Shown piece after piece: positions 40,399 to 64,000 of a stretch of 64,000 bases of DNA (position 1 is the first letter of the stretch; the number at the start of each line of letters is the position of its first letter). This DNA comes from Acytostelium subglobosum LB1 (taxonomy: Eukaryota > Evosea > Eumycetozoa > Acytosteliales > Acytosteliaceae): the NCBI RefSeq assembly GCF_000787575.1, contig NW_012236511.1:488521-552520 (forward strand), read 5' to 3'. The position numbers were made by a program, and so were the translations under genes. The notes under the pieces were generated by a model. It saw only the letters and a program-made list of their open reading frames with translations, did no database searches and had not been told where the DNA came from.

Positions 40399-43300
40399 AT
40401 GTCTACATCACCTTCAGTTCAGGTGATCCCTGTTGTTGCTAATGGTTCACTACCAACTACTGGTGGCTTGCAAACATCACCACCAGACACTACGACTATT
40501 GTAAAGAATAAGCCAGATGTTGTTGTTGAACACTCCTCAGCAGCTACACCAACACTATCATCATCATCATCATCATCTTCACCACCAGCCTCAACTACAG
40601 CCTCGTCATCATCACCTCTCTCATCAATCACACCATCCACCTCTGGATCATTCTCATCACGCATCACCACCGTATACATCGAAGAGATACAGGCCAGGAA
40701 CATCAATGAGAAGGACTTGTTTGTCAAGTTCAAGGTGGACAGGAAGAAGTTCAAAACCAGGACTCAAAAGAGAACCAGCAGTCCACTTTGGAATGAAAAG
40801 TATACATTGTAAGTATGACTGGATGATGGCTATTTTATTGTTGTTGTTGTGGTTGTTGTTGTTTCTAACCATTTCCAATGCATTTGATAAGATCAACGCC
40901 CAGTAAAGTGGATGAGATACAGTTCACCCTTTACAGCCAGAATCTACTAGGCAATAACATTAAGGTTGGCACTGTCAAGTATTCACTACATGGCAAGAAT
41001 GGTGCATCCACCACCACTACAGATATAAACAAGCAACAACAGTCAGCTGATACAACAGAGATATCATCATCAACCAGTTCCTTCACCTCAAGCAGCTCTA
41101 CTACATTTATGACAGTGTCGTCAGATACAGTATCAGAGTCAAGTACACCCATTGTGGAGAGCATCAATATCAATCATTGGTTGCCCTTGGAGCGTCGCAT
41201 TGGGCCATCACCTGCTGCACCGCCAGAACTCAAAGTGCGCATGGTGGTCAAGATCCGTGATATCTCATTGCTCAATGATACAGACACTAACAGCTCCACA
41301 TCGGTTGATGACCACCCGACACAATTGGTGCCTCCATCACGCTACCATCATCACCACAGTCGACACAACCATGACGGTTCCATCAAGGACCCCAAAGAGA
41401 TGTCTTTGATTGGCAAGGGTGGCAGCCACATCAAGAAACTGACCAAGCGCATCACATCAAAGATTGACAAGGGAGGCAACTCCAGCTCACATGCTGGTGA
41501 GCAAAGAAAGAACGACGAGCGAATGGCAATCATTGAGGAGCAAGTGGCAAAGGAGCGTGTCAAAGAGCTGGAAAAGGAGGCAATCGACAAAGAGAAGGAG
41601 AGGGCACGCGAGAAGCTTAGACAGCGAGAAGATGAGGAGCTACAGAAACAGCTGGAGAAGGAGCGCCAGGAAGAGAGGAGGAAGGCCAAAGAGGCAAAGA
41701 TGCGAAAGGAGAGAGAGAAGCGCATGCGACCAACACGACCGATCGATTACTTCTTTGTGGTTGGCTGCTCATCCAAGTTGGAGCCAATCGATCAAAGATA
41801 TGATATGTCCTCAAAGCTTACAGACCCCATGGAGATATGCTACAAGGGTGAGCTGCTCGACACATATCCTCCCAAGGATGAGGAGATACTTCCCTCACAT
41901 ATATGGATGGTATGTTTGGTCAGTGACAAAAAGAACGAATATGTCCAAACTAACGACATTCCCTTAACATCATCCTATACAGTATTGCTTCCCCAAGGGT
42001 GTATCATTATCTACTGAGGAGCTTCCTCCATCATTCTTCCCATTCGTCCTCACCAACGAAGTTGGTACAAGATTCTACGGCTCGTGCTTGATGTTCTATG
42101 AACCATTGTCTGAGGAGCTGTCAACAGAAGTGAAGAAGAGAAGACATGCCTATCAGAGTGCACAACAACAGTCCACTCCAGACAATTCATCAGACAATGA
42201 GGATGATGAAGCAACGGCGGGCAGCAATGACAGGTCCAAACGCGCGTCCACCCCATTGCCCAGTGCAGGACAACAACCATTGTCCACACCAACATCCCCA
42301 GTACAACTATCGAGCAACAACACAACCAGTCCTCAATCATCAAGTGCTGTACCCACAGGACTGGTGCCATCACAACAGCAGATGTACACCCCAAAGTGCA
42401 TATGCTTCCTGTCACACTATCCATTCTACAGCTTCTTCAGAGTCTGTCTGAATGACCTCTATCAAAAGGTGTTTTTCATGTCGGCGCCACTGCCCATTGA
42501 ACGATACATCCTCAACATGGTTCACGACGTTCCATTGCCCGTGCAAGGCGTCAGCACTGTCAACTACACTATCAACAAGACAGTAATAAGCTTGAAAAGA
42601 CCGCCCGAGTGTCTTTTACCAATGTCCGACGTACGTTTTTGGGTTCTATTCTTGTTTATGGTAGCACTCACTCACTCTATATACCTCCAACCTTATTTAG
42701 CTACCATTCTCCCTTCTATTCAAATGTCTTGACATCAAGAATGTACTGATGCTTCTCAAGTGCATACTACTTGAAGAGAAGATTGTATTCATATCGACAC
42801 ACTACTCTCTGTTGACATATGTAGCAGAGATATTCTCAGCACTTCTCCATCCATTCGTTTGGGTAAGTTACTTCAATCCTCTCTCTCACTCTCTCACTCT
42901 CATTGTACTCTCACTTACAAGCATCACTCCTAGCCCCATGTATATGTTCCAGTTCTTCCAGAACTATTATTGGAGTACGTCTATTCCCCATTCCCATTTA
43001 TCATGGGCGTCCACAAGTCAATGAGCAACTATATATTGAACGAGGAGAACCTTCTAAGCGAGATTGTCATTGCTGACTTGGACAACAACATGGTACTCAT
43101 ACCTCAGGGTCAGGACAGACTACATCAGGCCAGTCTACCAGAGCGAGAGACCGCTCAGCTCACCTATCAACTGCGAAAGGTGACCCAATTCGAATTGCAA
43201 TGTTCAGACATGCCAAACTATGACCTCAATTCAATGTCACCGATTCAGTCCTCAATCAACACTGACCTTGGTGGAGGAGGAAGCAGCAGCAGCAACAACA

Positions 43301-46069
43301 ACCGTCGATTCACAAACAACCATCACAATCAACATCATCGACATCATTACAACCCTGCGCCAACCCCTCCCGCATCCACTATAGTAGACGAGCACATACG
43401 ACTATCCTTCCTACAGTTCTTCTGTTCAATCATGGTGGACTATCGCTCGCATCTCAAATATCTGCGCGTATTCCCAAAGCCCATCACCTTGTTCAACAAA
43501 CTACAGTTCGTTAGGACACGTGCCACCTCAGCCAGTGAACTATTCTACACGTCATTTGTGGAGACACAATCGTTTAGCTACTTCCTGGATCAACATTCTT
43601 GGCCAAAGAAGAACGTCTTTGACTACCTGATCGAGACACAACGATTCAAGAGGCCTGTTGAGGAGTTGTGTGTTCTCAACAACACAGCCATCCCACAGGC
43701 ACTGGGCGTTCAAGAACCTGCCAAGTATTCTGTGGTCAATGCCCCTGCCCCCTCATCATTGCGCACAGCACCCACCACCATACGAGAGTATAGTCGATTC
43801 CCTCCATTGAAGGCTGATCTGATGGTGACCACGAGCTCTTCATCGGGTGGTCAGGATCATGTTGTCTCGACTGCATCACTAGTATCAATGGACATCTACA
43901 GCACGTCGATAGCAATGGCAGAGAGCGGTCCTGCCAATCCAAGCGATGACACACTACTTCCACTGGCCATTGTCGAGGAGCAACACAAGTCATTCGATAC
44001 CATTATTCAACAATTCCTCTCAAAGATCTCTGGTGATGTGCCACCAGAGTCATCTGACACTCAGCAGTTGCTTGAGCTGCTTAAGTTTGAGTCTGGTCGT
44101 CAACTATTTGGATACCTACTGCTCAAGCACCAGCGCAACAATGCCGATGAGAATGTCCCCAGCAAGGCTCGACTCAGCGATGCAATGTTCTATTGTTTGG
44201 GTGACATGCTCAAGGCAGCATTGCGTGAAGCCAACCTCCACTCGGACTTTGCCTCTACACGAATGTTCCTCGAGGCATCGTTCATTTATCATCGCATCCA
44301 AAAGGTGTCCAACGAGCATGTCAGTGAGCGACTGAGGAATCAAGACATCTGGCAGAACTATAAGTTCTGGGAGCAGTTCTTCTACGATTCGATCGAGCAA
44401 CGTTGTCGTATGCTCTATGGAAACATCATTCGAGAGATGCTCAAGTGGCACAGCTATGCAGGCGACAAACAGGACAAGATCAAGAACGACGAGCGTGAGA
44501 TGGAGTTCTCTCTGCTCTCCAAGCTGGCCTACTACATGATTCATTTGGGCACCCAACCAGACCTGATGAGACGATTCGTCAACAAGATGTGCTCCACCAT
44601 CAACTTTGACAATGATCGAACAGAGATCATGATGCAGGTCGTCTCCAACATCACCAGAGCACGTGAGATGTACGACATGGACAACTTGGAGAACGACAGT
44701 ACCAGTGTGACGATGGACGGCAACAAGCACGTCGACAAGGATCTCCACCAATTTACAAAGGACACATACATCTCGATCGGTGGCAGGAACTCTACAAAGG
44801 CCAACGAGGGTCGCGAGCTTCTCACTCATCTGATCGATGAGAAATCCAACAACATTGTTGCCCTCCGCAGTTTGAGTCGAATCATGAACCTGAAGAGTGC
44901 ATGGGCCGAGAAGCGATCCAAGACCAGCGCCAAGATCGACTATCGAGACATCTCAGAGAACAGAGGAGACTATGTGGTCAAGACATTCAATGGACACACT
45001 GAAGGTGTTCTCTGTTTGGCATTGACAGCACAGGGACACAGAGAGAATAACGTATTGGTCACTGGCAGTGCCGACTCCACACTACGCGTGTGGGATGTCA
45101 CCTCAACAAACTGTCTTGGCATACTGGAGGACCATGGAGGTTGGGTGAACTGCGTGGAACTTGTATCTGACTCCAAGATATTCAGTGCATCCTATGACAA
45201 GACATTGAAGCTCTGGGATCTGAACAAGTGCACCAAGGTCAAGTCATTCAGAGGTCATAAAGGGTATGTATTATGATTGAGCGATCCAAGTGATATTATG
45301 TCTTGGTTGTTAACAACTAGACCACCTTATGATACATAACCAACACAGATCTGTTAGCTGTCTCAAGAACATTGACAATCATCAAACAATATCTGGATCC
45401 TATGACAATACCTTGTTCATTTGGGATGATAGATCAACAAAGCCAGCTGGAACACTACTTGGACATCAACAGCCTATCATGAGTGTACTGAGTGATGGAT
45501 ACAGGATCATCTCTGGCAGCAGAGATACAAACATCAGAGTGTGGGACCTGCGCACAATGACCACATTTAAGATCCTCTCGGGACACACTGACTGGGTCAA
45601 GTGTCTGCAGTACGACAATGCCGACGTGCTTCTTAGTGGCTGCTGCGATGGCAAGGTCAAGGTGTGGTCGCTCGAGAGTGGTGAGTGTCTGAGGACACTT
45701 CAAGGACACAGCGGAAGCATCAACTCACTACTGCACCACAAGAAGGGTGACGTCAACAAGTTTGTCACGGCCTCGGCAGACTCTACGATTCAGGTCTGGG
45801 ACTCAAACAATGGTGTGGAGAGTGCCACGCTTACCGGTCACAATGACGAGGTGATGGGAGTAGAGAACTTCATCAACAACCTTGTAGTGTCTGGTTCATT
45901 CGACGGCACTGTAAAGTTGTGGGACGTTGACACTGGAAAGTCGCACCGAACCATCCACAATCACACCAACAGAATATCGACGCTAAAGACATATGAGTCG
46001 ATCATTGCCACTGCTAGTTGGGACAAGACAGCAAAGGCTTGCATCTTTGGTCTTGACTTTAGAATATGA
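40399..46069 (+). CDS. C2-DENN-WD40 protein (DENND3-like Rab exchange factor)
   Basis: Six exons: 40399-40808, 40892-41909, 41983-42630, 42701-42862, 42934-45263, 45349-46069 (1762 residues); every junction keeps frame. Ser-rich start, then a C2-like domain (about 90-330: ITTVYIEEIQARNI, KKFKTRTQKRTSSPLWNEKY, NINHWLPLERR), a Lys/Glu coiled coil (about 340-420), a DENN module (upstream part from about 477, KPRPIDYFF-type entry at RPTRPIDYFFVVG; core with CILLEEKIVFIS and FPFIMGVHKS; downstream part in exon 5) and about eight WD40 repeats from 1425 (GHTEGVLCLAL, SADSTLRVWD, GHSGSINSLL, TASWDKTAK). DENN plus C-terminal WD40 is the DENND3 layout, a Rab12 exchange factor in animals. Likely acts on a Rab in endosome/autophagy traffic. 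The N-terminal C2 is an addition to that layout. Confidence 0.9.
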
Positions 46070-54204: not shown

Positions 54205-54967
54205 TCACCCCTCGATCAATAGTATATTCTGGACGTTCGTTGACTTTAGCGATTTGAGATAATAGAGGTCGAGAGGATATGGTCGCATTGGATTTTCATA
54301 TATTGAGGGTTTGAGGGCGCCAAATAGAGAGGTCAGAAAGACCATCTCTTTGTCCAATAGGATTTGACCAGAGCAAGAGGGAGAAAAGAAGTTGAAGTGG
54401 GCCTCCTTGTAATCACCAAGGTTAGGATTGACAGCACTAGCGGGCTTGTTTGATTGACCATTACCAGTCTCATGGAACCAGTTCTGGTTGACTACATTAC
54501 AATCTTTCAACTTTTGTTTGAGTGTAGCCTCATTGCTGCGATAATTGATATTATCGTAGAAGGCCCGATTGGCATCAAAAGCTTTGTTGATGTGTCTATC
54601 AATCAGATCCTTGAAGAATGTTTTCTTCACACCACCGTCCTCATCATGAAAGCCTGGATGGACAACATATAATTAATCTCCATCTCAATTGAAATATTAT
54701 GCAGGGGCAACTAACTTACGAATGTATTCTTCACAACTTGGTTATCATTGTGCTGTCAAGGTAGATGCCGCTAGTGTAGGTACCTTCGGAAGTGCCTTGG
54801 CCATCTGTTAGCACAACCCACCAAGCAACGTTCGCTCCTGTAGGACTGAGACAACTGACTGGGTTTGCAGTTGTCGAGGCGCAATCAATTGGAGCAGCAT
54901 TGATCGAAGAAAGAACCAGTAGTGTAAGAAATAATAGTGAACGAAATAATAATATCTTTGGAGACAT
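54205..54967 (-). pseudogene. Secreted DNase II-like protein, probably fragment or frameshifted
   Basis: Minus strand. The first part (about 54731-54967) starts MSPKILLFRSLLFLTLLVLSS, a clear signal peptide, then SCLSPTGANVAWWVVLTDGQG, which resembles the N-terminus of DNase II (SCL..G..VDWWV). The frame then stops after YLDSTMITKL. A second segment (54205 to about 54652) continues FHDEDGGVKKTFFKDLIDRH and ends about 140 residues later. A GTAAGT donor (near 54719) and CCAG acceptor (near 54652) exist, but the phases of the two parts do not match, so either a base is missing or an exon is unseen. Total length is well below the usual 350 residues and the catalytic second half is not evident. 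Acid lysosomal/secreted nuclease by family; this copy is likely non-functional. Confidence 0.45.
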
Positions 54968-55115
54968 AATTGACTTGAGGATGAATAATACCGTATGGTG
55001 TCTAAGGATGTCTTACCCAATCGAGCGAGCTGGCTACCCCCGATCCGGTGCTTTGACAGGATATCAAATTTCAAAGAGAATCAAACATAAAGATAATAAT
55101 AATAATAATTTGAGG

Positions 55116-57228
55116 ATGAATAATAATCAACTACAAGAACACTCACGACAACTCACTGGACATGCTCACGTGATTGGCCGCATCATAGGATATGTATGGA
55201 GTGATCCAACGCAATCGATACGATCAAAGCTCGAGTTGGCGTTGGTCTGTCGACAGTTCTTCTCGATCATCTCGAGTCGATACACCAACTCGATCAATCT
55301 GCACTTCGACTTTAAGGAGATAAACAACCCATTCAATGAGCCTGTCAACACCACCAGTGCCACTGACATCGTGTCGCACATCAACTCACCCTACTGCCTG
55401 CTAAAGACAGTTCGGCGCGTGACTATCCACGAAGCCTACGACGAGGAGTACGTCAACAAGACCAACTTGGACGTGCTCTCAACGCACAGTAATCTCATCT
55501 TTGGCCACGTCGAGGAGTTGGTCTTCGAGAAGAGCACACCGACGCACATCGTCAGAGAACACTTTGACAACGATCACAACACTGCTCTGACATCGATACG
55601 CTGCAACATCCTCAACTGGCCAGCAGACGATGTCCTAAGATTTCTTGGCGCAATGCCTCGACCACTCAGCAGGCTACAGTCACTGACTCTGTGTCTAGCA
55701 AAGACAGAGAGTGACGCCAGTCCGATTGCGCATCAACTTCTTCCCCAGCTCAATCATCTCATTGTCAGGGGTGCATCGTGGCCCAGTCTTGCGTGCGATG
55801 GTGCTCTGCTCAAGGGCCTGGAGACGCTCGTGCTTGGAAGCAATAGGCAATACTACGAGGAGGTCTGCTATCGCATGGCGAGTCCAGCCACGTTCTTTGA
55901 GGCGCTCAAGCAGAACACTCGACTCCGTGTGTTGGAGCTGTGGCTAAGCAACAGCACTCAAGACAACGACTACAAGCCCGCATTCATCGACTATCTCATC
56001 AGCAATGGAGCCTCACTTCAGTCGTTGACCGTTGGATTCATACGTGATCGAGCACAGGTAGAGGTGATCGCCTCCAAGCTGCCCCAACTGCAACACCTCC
56101 AGCTCGAGACGAACGAGTCAGACATTGTGTTTGCACCAGCCACACTCAGGTCGCTGATACTCTCATCTCGCAGCGATCGCAACATCTACTATAGCGTGCG
56201 TTCCATTCGCGATCATGTGCTGCAGGCACCGCTGGCCTACCCCCTGACATCACTACACCTCCGCTTCTACCAATTCTACCACACGTCCTCCTATGTAACC
56301 ATCCGGATGCTCCCGACTCTGCTCAGCGGTGTGGCCTCGCTGCAACACCTGACCATCGATCTGTGCGGCGGCTTGGTAGAAGAGGAACTGGTACCGGCCA
56401 TGTGTGCGTGGCAGGCCTATCTGGCCGAGGGCCATCTCGAGACACTGGACGATCAAATTGGACGTGCCCTACAACTCCAGTCCCTCGATCGTCGAGAAGG
56501 TGCTCAAGGTGCTCGAGGATGGCTTCCAGCTCGACACTGAATGCTTATCGTATGATGAGTTCAAAAAGGCGGTCAAGATCAATCAGCAGCACCAACAGGT
56601 ACCTGCCACAGGTGGCTGCGTGCAATCCTGTGCGAGCTATCCCATCATTATCTTTGAGTGGCAAAGGCCCGGCAATATTATCCACTCAATGCGGGACACA
56701 GTGACACCGGGAGCACTCAAGCACTTTAAGTTGATCAATCAGACCGCCTCCCTGTCGCAAGTGGAGCACTATGGTACGGTGGTGTTCTGCTACCAACTAC
56801 AAGTGACACGACCCAACACGGTGTGCTCGTGTATCTCGCAGAAAGACTTGGACATGGACGATGCACTTGACAGATTCATGGCTGGTTTCATCAGCAGTGA
56901 CAGCTTTGAGTACACCTGCCAGTACGGCGACGACTTTCAACAAATGGAGACCTATGGCTTCGAGGGCGGCATGTCCTACGAACGAGTCGAGAATGTGCGC
57001 GCTCTCTACAAATCAAGGGATACCAACAATATAAGGTGGAAGACATATTAGTCAACTTCACTTCCATACGTGCAGCACTAGGCGCACACAAACATTGTCA
57101 TCGAGTTGGTTGGCGCGAGCGATAAGAGAAACAAATATTTCCAGACATATCTTGAGTGCTTGGTCCAGCTGCCCCACGATGAGGCTACCAGGGTCGACTG
57201 GCGGCTAGATAACAACAACCATTCCTGA
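55116..57228 (+). pseudogene. F-box/LRR-like protein gene interrupted by frame changes
   Basis: Intronless, GC-richer than genes before 54 kb. From MNNNQLQ (55116) the frame reads an F-box-like start (HVIGRIIGYVWSDPTQSIRSKLELALVCRQFF) and leucine-rich repeats (LQSLTLCLA, LNHLIVRGA, LETLVLGS, LRVLELWLSN, LQHLQLETN, LTSLHLRFY, LQHLTIDLCG). Near 56447 one extra G appears: before it the frame reads EGHLETL, after shifting one base it continues TIKLDVPYNSSPS and on to 57051. Two further shifts near 57020 and 57090 would add KVEDILVNFTSIRAALGAH and NIVIELVGASDKRNKYF. The frame open upstream of 55116 overlaps the antisense signal-peptide gene and is not used. Such proteins are SCF substrate adaptors in amoebae. 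Either a pseudogene or indel errors in the assembly. Confidence 0.6.
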
Positions 57229-57780: not shown

Positions 57781-58191
57781 GTGGACAACCACACAGAGAG
57801 GGGGTATATTTATTTTCAAATATCCAGCAGCAACAGCAACAGTAATAGCATTGGCAGCAGCAGCTGGGGCGGTGGCAACAGAGGCAGTAATGGTTTTGGC
57901 AACATTGATTTGTCAACAGTTGATATCCTCACTTCTCTCAAACGTCAAAGAACATCACCTCCATCAACATCAATATTAACATCAACATCATCAACATCAT
58001 CTACATCATCATCATCATCATCGTCGTCAACATCATCAACTTCACCAGTTTCATCATCTTCAACATCAACGTCGACAACATCAATAACACCGACACGTAC
58101 ATTAGGGATTGGCAATCTTCTAGGGAGGAAAGGAAATAACAGTCAGGTCGTCGTACAGCATAGTAGGTATGCATGTGCTCGCACTGTTTAA
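57781..58191 (+). CDS. Ser/Thr-rich low-complexity frame, doubtful
   Basis: 136 codons dominated by Ser and Thr runs from TCA/ACA repeats (57960-58090). The flanks ISSSNSNSNSIGSSSWGG, DLSTVDILTSLKRQRTSP and TLGIGNLLGRKGN have a protein-like look seen in dictyostelid genes. It overlaps the 3' end of the minus-strand acidic gene by about 70 bases, so both cannot be fully right. Weak. Confidence 0.25.
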   Translation: MDNHTERGYIYFQISSSNSNSNSIGSSSWGGGNRGSNGFGNIDLSTVDILTSLKRQRTSPPSTSILTSTSSTSSTSSSSSSSSTSSTSPVSSSSTSTSTTSITPTRTLGIGNLLGRKGNNSQVVVQHSRYACARTV

Positions 58192-59370
58192 CTCCTCCTT
58201 AGGTATGTCACGATCTCCTGGACCAAGGTATATGTTCTTCTTGATGTGACTGTCCTTGGTCTTGTGCTTCTTGTTCCTGTTGTTCTTGGCATCAATCACG
58301 TGACGTAGATCCTTCTTGGATAAAGTGCTTGGGTCCGGTCTAGTCTCCTCGCCCTTGGCTGCCTCGTTCTTGTTGTTCTCCATCAACTCGGTTGCCTTGA
58401 CCTTGATCTTGGCCTCCAACTCATGCCATTCCAGTTTGGATTCTCCCTTCTTGTCCAGTGGTATCGCCCCTTTTGCCCGGTCTTCCATGAATTCCTTCAG
58501 TCCAATTGCCAACTTGGTCGTCCACTGTCTGATCTTCCGCTTCTGTTCCTTTGAATTAAGGTTGCTCCAGAACGACTCCAACTGGGGATTCATGTTGTCC
58601 GTATTGTAGTAGTCGTAGTAATCTCTCAGTCTTGTTCCACTTGCGGCCTCGGCTAGTGTGATTTTCGACTTCCTGAGCTTCTTGGCCAACTCTTCTTTGC
58701 GTTCGATGCTGGATTGCACCACTTGTTTCGGCCAATACGACTCAATCACCTGCTTGTCTCCAAGTGTGATTCTTCTTCTCCTTCTCTCTATCCTGGTAGT
58801 AGATGGTGAAGGCTTCCAGTTCCCTCTCCGGCATGCACCTCAACATGATGATTATTCCTGCTCTTCCTGTATCTGGTGCATTGTAGTTGTTGAAGGCTGA
58901 CCCCAATTGCTGGATATAATCCTCCACCTTCTTCATCTTGTCTAAGTCCGTGACTCTCCTTCTGAAGTACTCGCTGTCAATGTCGAACTCGTCCTTGCCC
59001 TTGGCTTGATCATCTTTCTTCTTGGACTTCTTTTCTTCCTTCTTCGGCTTTGTGCCTTTGTTCTCGTTTGATCCTTGATCTTTCTTATCTGTTGATTCCT
59101 CTTTCTTCTTTTCCTCATCTGATGTTGATGCTTCTTTCTCTTCCTCATCTGATGTTGATTCTTCCTCCTCTTCATCTGATGTTGATTCTTCTTCTCTCTC
59201 CTTGCGTTTGAGTGTCTCCTTCACCATCTTCTTCAGTTCCTCAAAATTCTTCTCTCTCTTTATCCTTCTTCTTCATCTCTTCCAACTCCTTCATCATCCT
59301 TTCCTTCTCTTTCTCCAGCTCTTCAAACTTCTTCTGTAGTTGAACCGTCAATCTGTCTTTTCTAATTATT
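58120..59370 (-). pseudogene. Acidic Lys/Glu-rich coiled-coil coding region with two frame breaks
   Basis: Read 5' to 3' on the minus strand: a coiled coil (RKDRLTVQLQKKFEELEKEKE, about 59370-59265), frame change in a GA-rich tract near 59255, then NFEELKKMVKETLKRKE and a repetitive acidic stretch (TSDEEEEES repeats, KKEEKKSKKKDD) to about 58990, then an ordered block DIDSEYFRRRVTDLDKMKKVEDYIQQL, GRAGIIIMLRCMPERELEAF, a second one-base break near 58775 (EKKITLGDKQ restored), and VIESYWPKQVV down to the stop at 58120. The ordered block has a helical, capsid-like rhythm (VEDYIQQLGSAF), a weak hint of a gag-type retroelement protein. No definite family. A start codon upstream is not identified. 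Confidence 0.45.
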
Positions 59371-59776
59371 CTATCCTTCACTACTATTATTACTATTATT
59401 ATTATATACAAAGGTCCGAAAGGTCGACCTATTCTATCAATGGATCAGCCATACTCAACCAGAACCTATGAATAGTAAACCTCAACTTGTAATTGACCTG
59501 TATCCACCATCTCAATTACATTACGAATCATAACTTGAGTAACAATTAAGAGTTAATCGGTTTGAATAAAGGTTGTGAGGGATTTATTGATTGATTGATT
59601 TCCAATGTTTCCATGGTCTTGGATTGATTATTGTAGGTTCCTTATTGCCAGTACTTGATGGGGAACTAAAATACATCATCAAGTTTGAGTTGGAGGAAAG
59701 ATCGGGTCATTGAGCAACTCCATAAAAAAGTTGACTTAAGAGTTAATTTTCAAAACTTGTTACAGACTTTGCGAGG
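59371..59776. other. Intergenic, 0.4 kb
   Basis: AT-rich, with an ATT repeat (59385-59402). Upstream DNA of both the minus-strand acidic region and the plus-strand FNIP-like gene; nothing else visible. Confidence 0.4.
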
Positions 59777-61688
59777 ATGGAGAGTCTTGATGACAGAGTG
59801 TTGCTGATGATCATCGAGCTGCTCGACAACCTGGTGGATGGCGTGTGTCTCGTGTTGGTGTCCAAGCGCCTCTTCACATTGGCATCCAAGATCAGGCACT
59901 GGGGCCACACATTCCCCGAACACGATTCTGACGAATGCCGCCTCTCACTCCGATCGTTCAAAGCTTCTTGCGACCTCACGCACAGTGACTTCTATCGAGA
60001 ATACATCGTGACCGAGCTGCCCGCACCCGCCTCGCCCAACGCGGGGCTCGTCGCCTGTCTCGACAATGACAGCTGCCAGCCCACGCCACACTCGATCCCA
60101 AGATGGGCCAAGACTCTGTGGCTGTGCCACAACAAGCCAACGATTGCACAGGGCATCATCCCAGACACCGTGACCGCAATCACATGTGTCTGTGCAGGTG
60201 TCATCGAGCAGTTCCCCACCGGACTGCAGTCGATCTCACTGCGCGACACCCCACTGGTCGCCCGCCTCCCAGACTCTGTGACGGAGATGTCGTTGTTCAG
60301 AGAAAGCGACTGGTCCAGGCAATACACAACACAACTTCCCGACACTCCCCTGGTGTTGGCGTCACTCCCATCATCGTTGGTCTCACTCACCATTAGCAAT
60401 AACAACTCTGACCGCACTAGCCGGGTGACAATTCCGCTGCGCGCGCTGCCCAGCACGATTCGCACTCTGACCATCAAAGGCTATGTGAATATTGAAGACC
60501 AGGACATACTCCTTCAACTGCCTCTCGAGAGCATTCACGCCAACGTTCGTTATTTGCCGTCCGGCATCAAGAGGGCCAACTTGGAGCAAGCGTCGCTCAG
60601 CCAATACAACATGTATCCTCGTCTCGAGTCACTCACAATTGACGAGTGGATGGTAACACAATATCCGGACGGCTATCCAGACACGCCACACGAGGGGTTC
60701 CCTCCCATCTTCGAGCCCCCCTCAGTCTACGAACCTGCGCTCTTCCCATCGCTCACGGAGCTCAACATTGGAAAGACACACCGCCTTGTCCCCGGCAACA
60801 TCCCGCCATCGGTTACCAAGCTCTCGGTGGGCCGAGTGGATGGCAGACTGGACTGCGGCAGCATCCCGTCGTCGGTGGTCGATCTCCAGCTCGGCCGAAT
60901 AGGACTGCGCGACAACGCTGGTGTGATCCCTCCCAGCGTGACCAGACTCAGCATTCAAGACTTTGGCGGGCTCGCCGACAACGAGCGTCTCATACTTCCG
61001 GCCAGTCTCACCGACTTCACACACTTTGGTTACGAGCGACCGTGCTCGTTCGACCTGCCACCGACGGCCACGCGTCTTCACCTCAGCGCCATCAACGGCA
61101 CGGTGATTCCGGCGAGTGTCACGCATCTTACACTGGGCACCACGCTTGTCGATGTATCTGCTCTGCCACCAGGCCTGGTGACGTTCCACTACGCCGCCAG
61201 AGATATCTTTTACTACAAAGGCGCCCATGCACATGATGTGTACAACCTGCCCGAGCCCACAGCATCGCCACTGTTGCCGCATGGCGTACCAAATATTAGA
61301 GTGGACCGACCGATACACAGCAAGATACATCCTCTCCGCCTCCCATTGTCTCTCTTTACCAGTGTGCCAGCACTCCACCTTGTGATGGCCGAGAATGATG
61401 AAGACACTTGTCTGCTCGAGTTGAGCTCTCGCCATCTTGGAAACGGTCATATATTGTTGCTGGAGAACATATCACTGCGTGGCGGCATCATTCCAATCGG
61501 ACACCTCCCACCTGACTATGACATGATGCAGATCATCTCCAAGCTAGATTGTGTCCTCTGGAACGACCATCTGTACGATTGACGAATTCGAGCATCTCTG
61601 CGGCTGTGCACCAGCGCGCGTGTCGCAGTCCTCCAACGAGTTCCTCAAGGCTATGAGCGAGGGCATAAAAAAGGTGCTGCAAGAGTAA
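59777..61688 (+). CDS. FNIP/F-box-like repeat protein, C-terminus frameshifted
   Basis: Intronless. From ATG 59777 the main frame gives 601 residues to a TGA at 61580: F-box-like start (MESLDDRVLLMIIELLDNL, CLVLVSKRLFTLA), then repeats of the FNIP type in which IPPSVTKLSVG, IPSSVVDLQLG, IPPSVTRLSIQ, IPASVTHLTLG recur about every 22 residues. Shifting one base near 61573 (within CTGTACGAT) continues TIDEFEHLCGCAPARVSQS through EGIKKVLQE to TAA at 61686, which looks like the genuine C-terminus. FNIP/F-box proteins are hugely expanded in dictyostelids and thought to be SCF adaptors. GC-rich third positions contrast with genes before 54 kb. Confidence 0.75.
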
Positions 61689-61723
61689 ACACACGCGTGC
61701 GCGCGAGTATGTATTGATCGCGA

Positions 61724-61852
61724 TCATAATCGGTAGCGCTTGGACAGACTGAATTCGACGTAGCTGATCTTGAGCTGGGTGCGGTCGTAACGAACGGCGA
61801 ACTCGTCGTGGCGGAACGGCGTGGGCCGCGCCGGCGTCAACATATGTTCACC
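61724..61852 (-). CDS. Short GC-rich coding-like segment, PARP C-terminus-like
   Basis: About 42 codons, possibly a last exon after a TTTAG acceptor at 61853: GEHMLTPARPTPFRHDEF, then AVRYDRTQLKISYVEFSL ending RYRL and TGA. The pattern E-F-x-V-x-Y-D-x-x-Q-x-K-x-x-Y resembles the last beta strands of poly(ADP-ribose) polymerase catalytic domains (EYIVYD..Q...Y). The rest of such a domain is not visible upstream; an AT-rich frame (61848-62030) does not supply it. Could be a remnant exon. Confidence 0.3.
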   Translation of the reverse strand, partial: GEHMLTPARPTPFRHDEFAVRYDRTQLKISYVEFSLSKRYRL

Positions 61853-62288
61853 CTAAAGCAAACGTCTTTGTACTTTGCCATACACACTCCACCAGACAGT
61901 TGAACACCTCCACCCAATGCTCCTCATAGTTGACTACGAGAGGATCGTCATTAGGTTGACGTATCTTGACGGGTATTAAAATTAGAGCTATGAAGATACC
62001 CTTGTAAGGTAAAGTAGTTGGTGATAGCATGGCATGATGTTCCCAATATGGTAATAGAAGTCGAATATTTGGTCTAACAGATAAATGACCTAATAATCAA
62101 GATTTTGACGATGAGGAGTATTGCCCCCACCTTCACAGATCGGACTCTCTGTGGGTGAAGAGGTGTGTGGGTGGGTCAGTAACACATTCTTTACAGATAA
62201 TCATTCATACAGATAATCATGCGTTCATACAGATAAACACAGACGAATATGTTACAGGTGAAATTTAATGAATATACATTCAACGTAT
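61853..62288. other. Spacer between PARP-like segment and Ulp1-like gene
   Basis: 436 bases, AT-rich, with a direct repeat (GATAATCAT..TCATACAGATAA) at about 62196-62237. No gene recognised. Confidence 0.35.
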
Positions 62289-64000
62289 CTACTTGGTTGA
62301 TCGATAGCTTCTGGTGTACATTTGAATGATTTGTTCCACATTGTCAAAGTCTTCAGCATCTCTGCACTTCAGCTTTGTCATCGATTGGAGGTATTGGCTC
62401 AAATGATCCTCACCAATGCTATCTGTTGATGCGATCATGCTGAGGAAGGACCTTACGAACTTGTACACATAGAGTCCACATCGCCAATTACATGTCTGCA
62501 CCTTATTCTGTAGGGTCTTGATGGGGATGGCTTCATACTTCTTCTTCTTGTCAACATTCTTGTAATCATCATAGAAGTTGTTTGCGTAGTCTTTGTGCGA
62601 CCAAACAACAGAGAATCCAGATGCAAAAGATAGGCACGATCGTTGACAGTGATGGTGAACATGACAGAGTGATGGCTTTGGATGGAGACGGTGACTGCTT
62701 CCTCAATCAATCAATCAATCAATCAATCATACAATCAAAGTGGAAACGATTGGTGAATTGATTACAAAAACTACGTTACCCATCACATTTATTGGATTAC
62801 AAATATGTTTGACTTGTCATCGCACCAATGCCACCAATACGTATCCTCTTTACCGTTTCTGTACGATGGTGTCTTGTACTTGACGACTTGAGCTTCCAAC
62901 TCATTGAGGGAAGTGTTATACTTGGCCTTGTCTTCGCTGGAGATCGTGATGCCAGAACGTCCCAGACCATATATCCTCTCTTGGATGTTGTTGTACTCAT
63001 TGTGCAATCTCTCAAGTACTCCATCTCTGCCGATGGGTGGCATTTCAAGTTGAAAGGTCTTCTTGCGTCGATGAGTCTTGAGCTCGACAACCTTTCCTCT
63101 GTAGAATCGCCCAGACTTTCCATTGTAATTGAAGACAAGTACATCGACTTCTTTGATCGTACTTTCATTCTGTTGAGTGAAGGCATTGGCACTGCACACG
63201 TTCTCTTGTGTAGTTAACTGATATTCCTTTCCTTGTTCAAATTGCACATTATACGTCATTGTCTCGTTGTCCTGATCGTATGTGGAGGACTTGACTGTGG
63301 CAGGCCACCATGTTCCAGCGTCCACCTCAACTGACATCGCATAGACTTTCTCGCCATCTTTGTAATATTGAGTATTCATCAGTGTGTCTTCCTGCACCGG
63401 TGCCACGTTCTCCATCGGTGATACATCTTCCATCGTAACAACATGCGATTCATTGGTACCAGTATGTGTTTGCTCGCCGTCACTATTGTTCATACCACCA
63501 CCGGAATCGATGTTGCACTCGTCCTGCACATTTGATTGATCATCATCCATCTCCACGTTGTCCTCATTTACCTCGTGTCCATCCTCGTCATCACTCGGTC
63601 CCTCTTGTGCAACTTGTCCATATGCATACGTGTCATCGTCCTCGTCCTCGCCCACCTCCTCCTCGTCGCCAATGTCGCATGTGTGAGCATGGTGGGAATT
63701 GACGGTGTTTGCGGTCATGCCATGTGTTGTTCTGTACTTGTCAAATACATTTGGATGTCTGACGTTCATAGTCTCTTTGTATGTGACGTTGCGAGTGTTT
63801 GTGCCATTAAGGAGATCCTTGTATTGGTTGGACTGATAGGACACATGTGTGATGATGTTGCCACGTTTGAGTTGTACTCGACACAACTCAGCCACGCCAT
63901 ATATAGATGGTGCCGTTTGTATTGCGATCCAAGACCAACTTATTGGCGTAGTGTCGTCCCTCTGGTGCCATGTTGATAAGGCGGGCAAGCGATCCCAACA
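62289..64000 (-). mobile_element. Transposon-like gene: transposase-like tail, Tudor-like pair, Ulp1/C48 protease
   Basis: Minus strand, entering from the right edge (N-terminus outside). Exon 62801-64000+ then a 99-base intron (62702-62800, GTAATC/GAG) and exon 62289-62701. Order: a segment ending VRHPNVFDKYRTTHGM and VNSHH, reminiscent of the P...DxY...D..N C-terminal tail of DDE (PiggyBac-like) transposases; an acidic linker (DEEEVGEDEDDD); two Tudor/chromo-like segments (EKVYAMSVEVDAGTWWPATV; VDVLVFNYNGKSGRFYRGKV); then a C48-type protease: HHSVMFTITV (His), YLLHLDSLLFG (Asp), and NWRCGLYVYKFV (Cys). A one-base break near 62595 separates the Asp and Cys parts. Ulp1-type proteases cut SUMO-like tags and are carried by several plant and oomycete DNA transposons. 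Family calls for the first two parts are tentative; the protease triad is the firmest. Confidence 0.5.
62701..62730. repeat. TCAA tetranucleotide microsatellite in intron
   Basis: Six to seven TCAA units at the 3' end of the intron of the Ulp1-like gene (ATTGATTG on the coding strand, directly before the acceptor). Same motif as in leaders at 6747 and 12118. Confidence 0.85.

Follow-up and report, generated by a model that had tools for sequence, protein, structure and literature searches.

The locus described here is best compared with the Ulp1/SENP SUMO proteases, which we take to be family C48 of MEROPS, and with the mobile elements which carry such enzymes. Proteases of this group, represented in Pfam by PF02902, are reported to be fused to the transposase in Ginger1 and to be encoded in Mutator elements (PMC2836005), and C48 peptidases are carried by some Cryptons (PMC3212892). 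The authors of the Ginger study propose that Ulp1 has a role in transposition or in post-transposition repair (PMC2836005). Ginger1, which combines a Gypsy-integrase-like transposase with a C-terminal Ulp1 or OTU domain, resembles our locus in that the protease occupies the C-terminus of a larger protein, and some of its members have introns, which may be compared with the probable intron found here (PMC2836005). It differs in possessing an integrase-like transposase, none being seen in the visible part of our gene, and the word 'tudor' does not occur in the main text of PMC2836005. The Dictyostelium elements Tdd-4 and Tdd-5 belong to Ginger2, and no Ulp1 is named for either of them in the available sections of PMC2836005. 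The Ulp1-bearing Mutators and the C48-bearing Cryptons are likewise mobile elements which carry a C48 protease (PMC2836005, PMC3212892), whereas the visible part of our gene gave no match to a Mutator transposase or a tyrosine recombinase. Fungal transposons with a TET/JBP dioxygenase offer an analogy only, as elements which carry an enzyme that might undo host silencing (PMC12730594); their enzyme and the mark it acts upon differ from those considered here, and the mobility of our locus stays putative. SUMO-dependent repression of repeated DNA has been studied in other systems (PMC7676866). Among the matches listed from the open-licence literature, no title or beginning of an abstract described a transposon with both Tudor and Ulp1 domains.

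In the window, by which we mean the whole 64-kb stretch of DNA analysed, the gene lies on the minus strand and extends from the window end at 64000, where the edge cuts it, to a stop codon at 62289-62291. The first-pass annotation had described an acidic linker and the motifs WWPATV, FYRGKV, HHSVMF, LHLDSLL and NWRCGLYV in one reading frame. We recovered the linker and every one of these motifs on the minus strand; the single reading frame had to be given up, since ORF reading and codon scores divided the gene into four stretches over two frames (Table 1). The main body begins with a part to which no domain could be assigned, passes through the acidic linker (about 63670-63500), the Tudor-like segments and a helical region, and ends in ..SNIF. 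The residues HHSVMF..LHLDSLL are in the frame of the body, but past in-frame stops, in an apparent exon 2 which follows the gap 62800-62702, while NWRCGLYV is again in the frame of the tail, after a second frame break.

Table 1. Features of the minus-strand gene and its 3' side, with window coordinates and codon log-odds by frame
Feature	Position	Strand	Observations
Tail piece	63905..63998	-	Frame differs from that of the body; codon log-odds +13.3 in own frame vs -1.3 and -22.8; joined to the body start, it gave no Pfam match
Main body	62801..63900	-	Open frame; codon log-odds +83.5 over 366 codons in own frame vs -62.9 and -227.9
First Tudor/Agenet-like segment (WWPATV)	63190..63379	-	Sub-gathering Pfam Agenet and Tudor_3; low-confidence beta models
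Second Tudor-like segment (FYRGKV)	63029..63165	-	Three strands in low-confidence models; no Pfam match alone
Probable intron	62702..62800	-	99 nt, GT..AG, 31% GC; codon log-odds negative in all three frames (-53.5, -37.5, -19.3, partly from stop codons at -8)
Exon 2 start (His strand HHSVMF, Asp in LHLDSLL)	62612..62701	-	Codon log-odds +7.7, barely above the +6.6 of another frame; weak alone
Stretch after second break (Gln/Cys motif QTCNWRCGLYV and C-terminal tail)	62292..62600	-	Codon log-odds +26.4 in the frame of the tail vs -31.8 and -88.7; stop 62289-62291
Three 16-nt direct repeats	62188..62239	.	Immediately 3' of the stop codon; repeat search, with 81% and 94% to the reference copy

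The codon model was trained on 6,288 codons from 13 other ORFs of the window, which were of our own choosing, and each stretch was scored in three frames with stop codons set to -8. The 3' flank scored negatively in all three frames. From the log-odds by frame (Table 1), the minus-strand stretches are a genuine protein-coding gene, coding well above the chance level. The gap 62800-62702 starts with GTAATC, ends with AG and is AT-rich, the coding flanks having 45% and 43% GC. As its excision puts the flanks in phase, an intron is the simplest reading of the gap, and probably the correct one. A TCAA/TTGA tetranucleotide run lies within it at 62703-62734.

The two frame changes look like small frame shifts. 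The first falls in a TA-rich run near 63905-63900. The second, near 62612-62600, had to be placed by eye, since either frame is open from about 62702 to 62453. It had been suggested earlier that one frame change splits the protease and that the copy may therefore be dead; a break between the Asp and Cys parts is indeed there, while the case for death is weakened by the gap being better read as an intron and by a similar break in a host gene of the same window. In the region of this DENN/WD40 gene (40869-46069, plus strand), the conserved uDENN domain is divided by a frame change at 41990-42000 and its parts fall in two ORFs which overlap: positions 2-25 of the Pfam model match one frame (E 0.008, below the cut-off) and positions 19-57 match the next (E 1.6e-12). 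This points to an indel in the sequence, or else to damage in the host gene. Since a host gene is broken in this manner, the breaks in our gene do not prove a dead copy, and indels in the sequence or the assembly are plausible as a fair alternative to decay. That the locus is the remnant of a decayed gene or element, in which the breaks are real mutations and the protein is not made, would fit two frame breaks in about 1.7 kb; against this, codon usage is intact on either side of the breaks, though exon 2 scored weakly, and the DENN gene with its comparable break across uDENN makes sequence or assembly indels plausible. We therefore regard decay as possible, though the less probable outcome.

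Other genes of the window may be mentioned here. The neighbouring gene at 59747-61582 encodes FNIP repeats (E 2.5e-12), and such repeats fit a dictyostelid. An LRR-like ORF at 54780-56540 on the plus strand (LRR_14, E 8e-5, below the cut-off) seems by eye to run on in another frame at 56380-57051 (plus strand), a part which had no Pfam match, and this is perhaps a further indel. Two Lys/Glu-rich ORFs overlap in different frames at 58120-59272 on the minus strand, and neither had a Pfam match above the cut-off.

We then come to the Tudor-like segments, two of which had been claimed. Over the first segment, Pfam Agenet matched with E-values of 0.0041 when the whole frame was the query, 5.3e-4 with the tandem region and 0.013 with the segment alone, all of them below the gathering threshold (best score 20.9 bits vs gathering 27), and Tudor_3 matched at 0.19, 0.018 and 0.049 for the same three query lengths. 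AlphaFold, run without an alignment on two pieces of the Tudor region, returned mostly beta models of low confidence (mean pLDDT 46.1 and 48.7), in which strands cover both segments and the longer piece adds two helices after them. When the low-confidence barrel model was searched with Foldseek, none of the 672 matches at E<=10 reached E<=0.001; the tandem Tudor of UHRF1 stood at rank 18 of these 672 with E 0.39, behind 17 chains of pyruvate carboxylase. Taken together, the Pfam, model and Foldseek results are suggestive and not proof. They make a Tudor/Agenet-like barrel plausible in the first segment, for which the earlier call is upheld in part by the sub-threshold Agenet match; for the second segment, which has its strands in low-confidence models, the call found no support in Pfam. 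Our gene accordingly resembles Agenet/Tudor domain proteins in the weak Agenet match over its first barrel, and differs from them in that this match is below the family cut-off and that the second barrel has none.

The C-terminal part had been assigned to C48 from the order His, Asp, Cys. The motifs do occur in this order and with Ulp1-like spacing: Ulp1 (1euv) and SENP1 have H-x16-DS followed by Q-x5-CG-x-[YF], and our gene has H-x17-DS followed by an identical Cys half, so that H..DS and then Q-x5-CG-x-[YF] are shared with the Ulp1/SENP SUMO proteases in the same order and at nearly the same spacing. In Ulp1 and SENP1, however, a Trp follows the catalytic His, while here there is none (HHSV). 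When these 178 residues were shuffled 200,000 times, the pattern H-x(15-20)-D[ST]-x(35-90)-Q-x5-CG-x-[YF] arose in 4 shuffles, and in 185 once the [ST] and x-[YF] conditions were dropped; the test depends on our own joining of the frames and on a pattern written after inspection of the sequence. Among the window's 357 open segments of 60 aa or more, the half Q-x5-CG-x-[YF] matched once, in our gene, against an expectation of 0.16. Matches to the His half are common (60 in the open segments of the window), and the full His-Asp-Gln-Cys pattern had no match in the unjoined open segments of the window, the arrangement appearing in our gene only if it is read across the second frame break.

Searches with models and profiles did not extend the assignment. 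Neither the separate pieces nor the read-through gave a C48 family match in Pfam, NCBIfam, PHROGs or the PDB sequences; the best Pfam match of the read-through was Interleukin 7 (E 0.018), which is surely due to chance. In hhalign against Ulp1 and SENP1 the score of 16.3, obtained over 14 columns around the Cys, was attained by 17 of 200 shuffles, and the one piece aligned was the Cys motif in its correct register. On an ungapped two-block score against Ulp1/SENP1, 1,440 of 20,000 shuffles did as well as our gene, as did 2 of 76 other ORFs; the first block fell off the His because the His-Asp spacing is one residue longer here than in Ulp1/SENP1. Inspection by eye showed no WLND-type N-terminal part of C48, and the gene differs from the Ulp1/SENP family in this unrecognised N-terminal part and in having no family-model match. 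The earlier C48 assignment thus stands for the order and spacing of the motifs and is qualified by their split over two frames and by the want of model or profile support. If the resemblance were due to chance and the C-terminal part were some other domain, the failure of every model and profile test to support C48 would be explained; the rarity of the tetrad pattern (4 in 200,000, through the frame join and with a post hoc pattern) argues the other way, and we consider this explanation somewhat unlikely. A C48-style catalytic tetrad in the C-terminal part is, judging from its motifs, plausible.

The tail had been described as transposase-like. This description found no support in Pfam, where the tail and the start of the body, the visible part, matched no transposase or recombinase family. 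A local alignment placed piggyBac as the source of the tail at the chance level (976 of 2,000 shuffles were as good), and a tyrosine recombinase was weighed as a reading of the tail by visual inspection only. A transposase in the missing 5' part of the gene is a possibility to which we give appreciable weight, although its absence there is the likelier case. A tblastn search of the 64-kb window revealed neither a second copy nor a related fragment of significance; apart from the gene itself, the best match had E 0.093. Viral contigs, prokaryote genomes and plasmids (the last with one query) yielded no confirmed relative; these collections were not built for dictyostelids, and absence from them says little, as a eukaryotic element would not be expected there. 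There was likewise no match to PADLOC models. A hairpin downstream of the stop codon was also rejected, since its fold z-score was -0.50 and 58 of 200 shuffles folded as well. Just past our gene, at 61720-62000 on the minus strand, there is by eye an apparent 3' end of a gene without a visible upstream part; as the sequence spliced by eye from about 62000-61720 (minus strand) matched nothing in Pfam or the PDB, we make no claim of an insertion into a disrupted host gene.

These results bear on whether the gene is the C-terminal end of a DNA transposon protein, composed of transposase, Tudor and Ulp1 parts, whose own deSUMOylase would let it escape or exploit silenced chromatin. The precedents of Ulp1 in Ginger1 and Mutator (PMC2836005) and of C48 in some Cryptons (PMC3212892) are in its favour, as are the three short direct repeats just past the stop; it is opposed by the missing transposase match, with the piggyBac comparison at chance, by the lack of a second copy or significant fragment in the window and, for the little it says, by the lack of relatives in the viral, prokaryote and plasmid collections. 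We hold it to be a tentative reading, which is more probably wrong than right. Still bolder, and in our estimate improbable, is a dictyostelid mobile element with a recombinase joined in one protein to a tandem Tudor/Agenet reader and a SUMO protease, by which it would read and strip the silencing marks of its host.

Our best reading is that of a deSUMOylase-like nuclear gene, which is possibly transposon-borne. In its particulars we give it an even chance: a dictyostelid-like gene whose product has one or two Tudor/Agenet-like barrels and a helical stretch besides the acidic linker, and whose cysteine protease is of the C48 (Ulp1-like) type but highly diverged. In such a nuclear protein the barrel would dock on a chromatin protein which carries methylation or some other mark, and the protease may remove SUMO or a related modifier from nearby proteins; were a transposase encoded upstream, such activities could help an element to transpose where chromatin is silenced. 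What we have at present is an incomplete gene for which two domain calls are plausible. Should orthologues bear out both domains together with a transposase, the locus would be a mobile element equipped with a chromatin reader plus a deSUMOylase, and such an element, if true, would provide a direct test case for escape from SUMO-dependent silencing.
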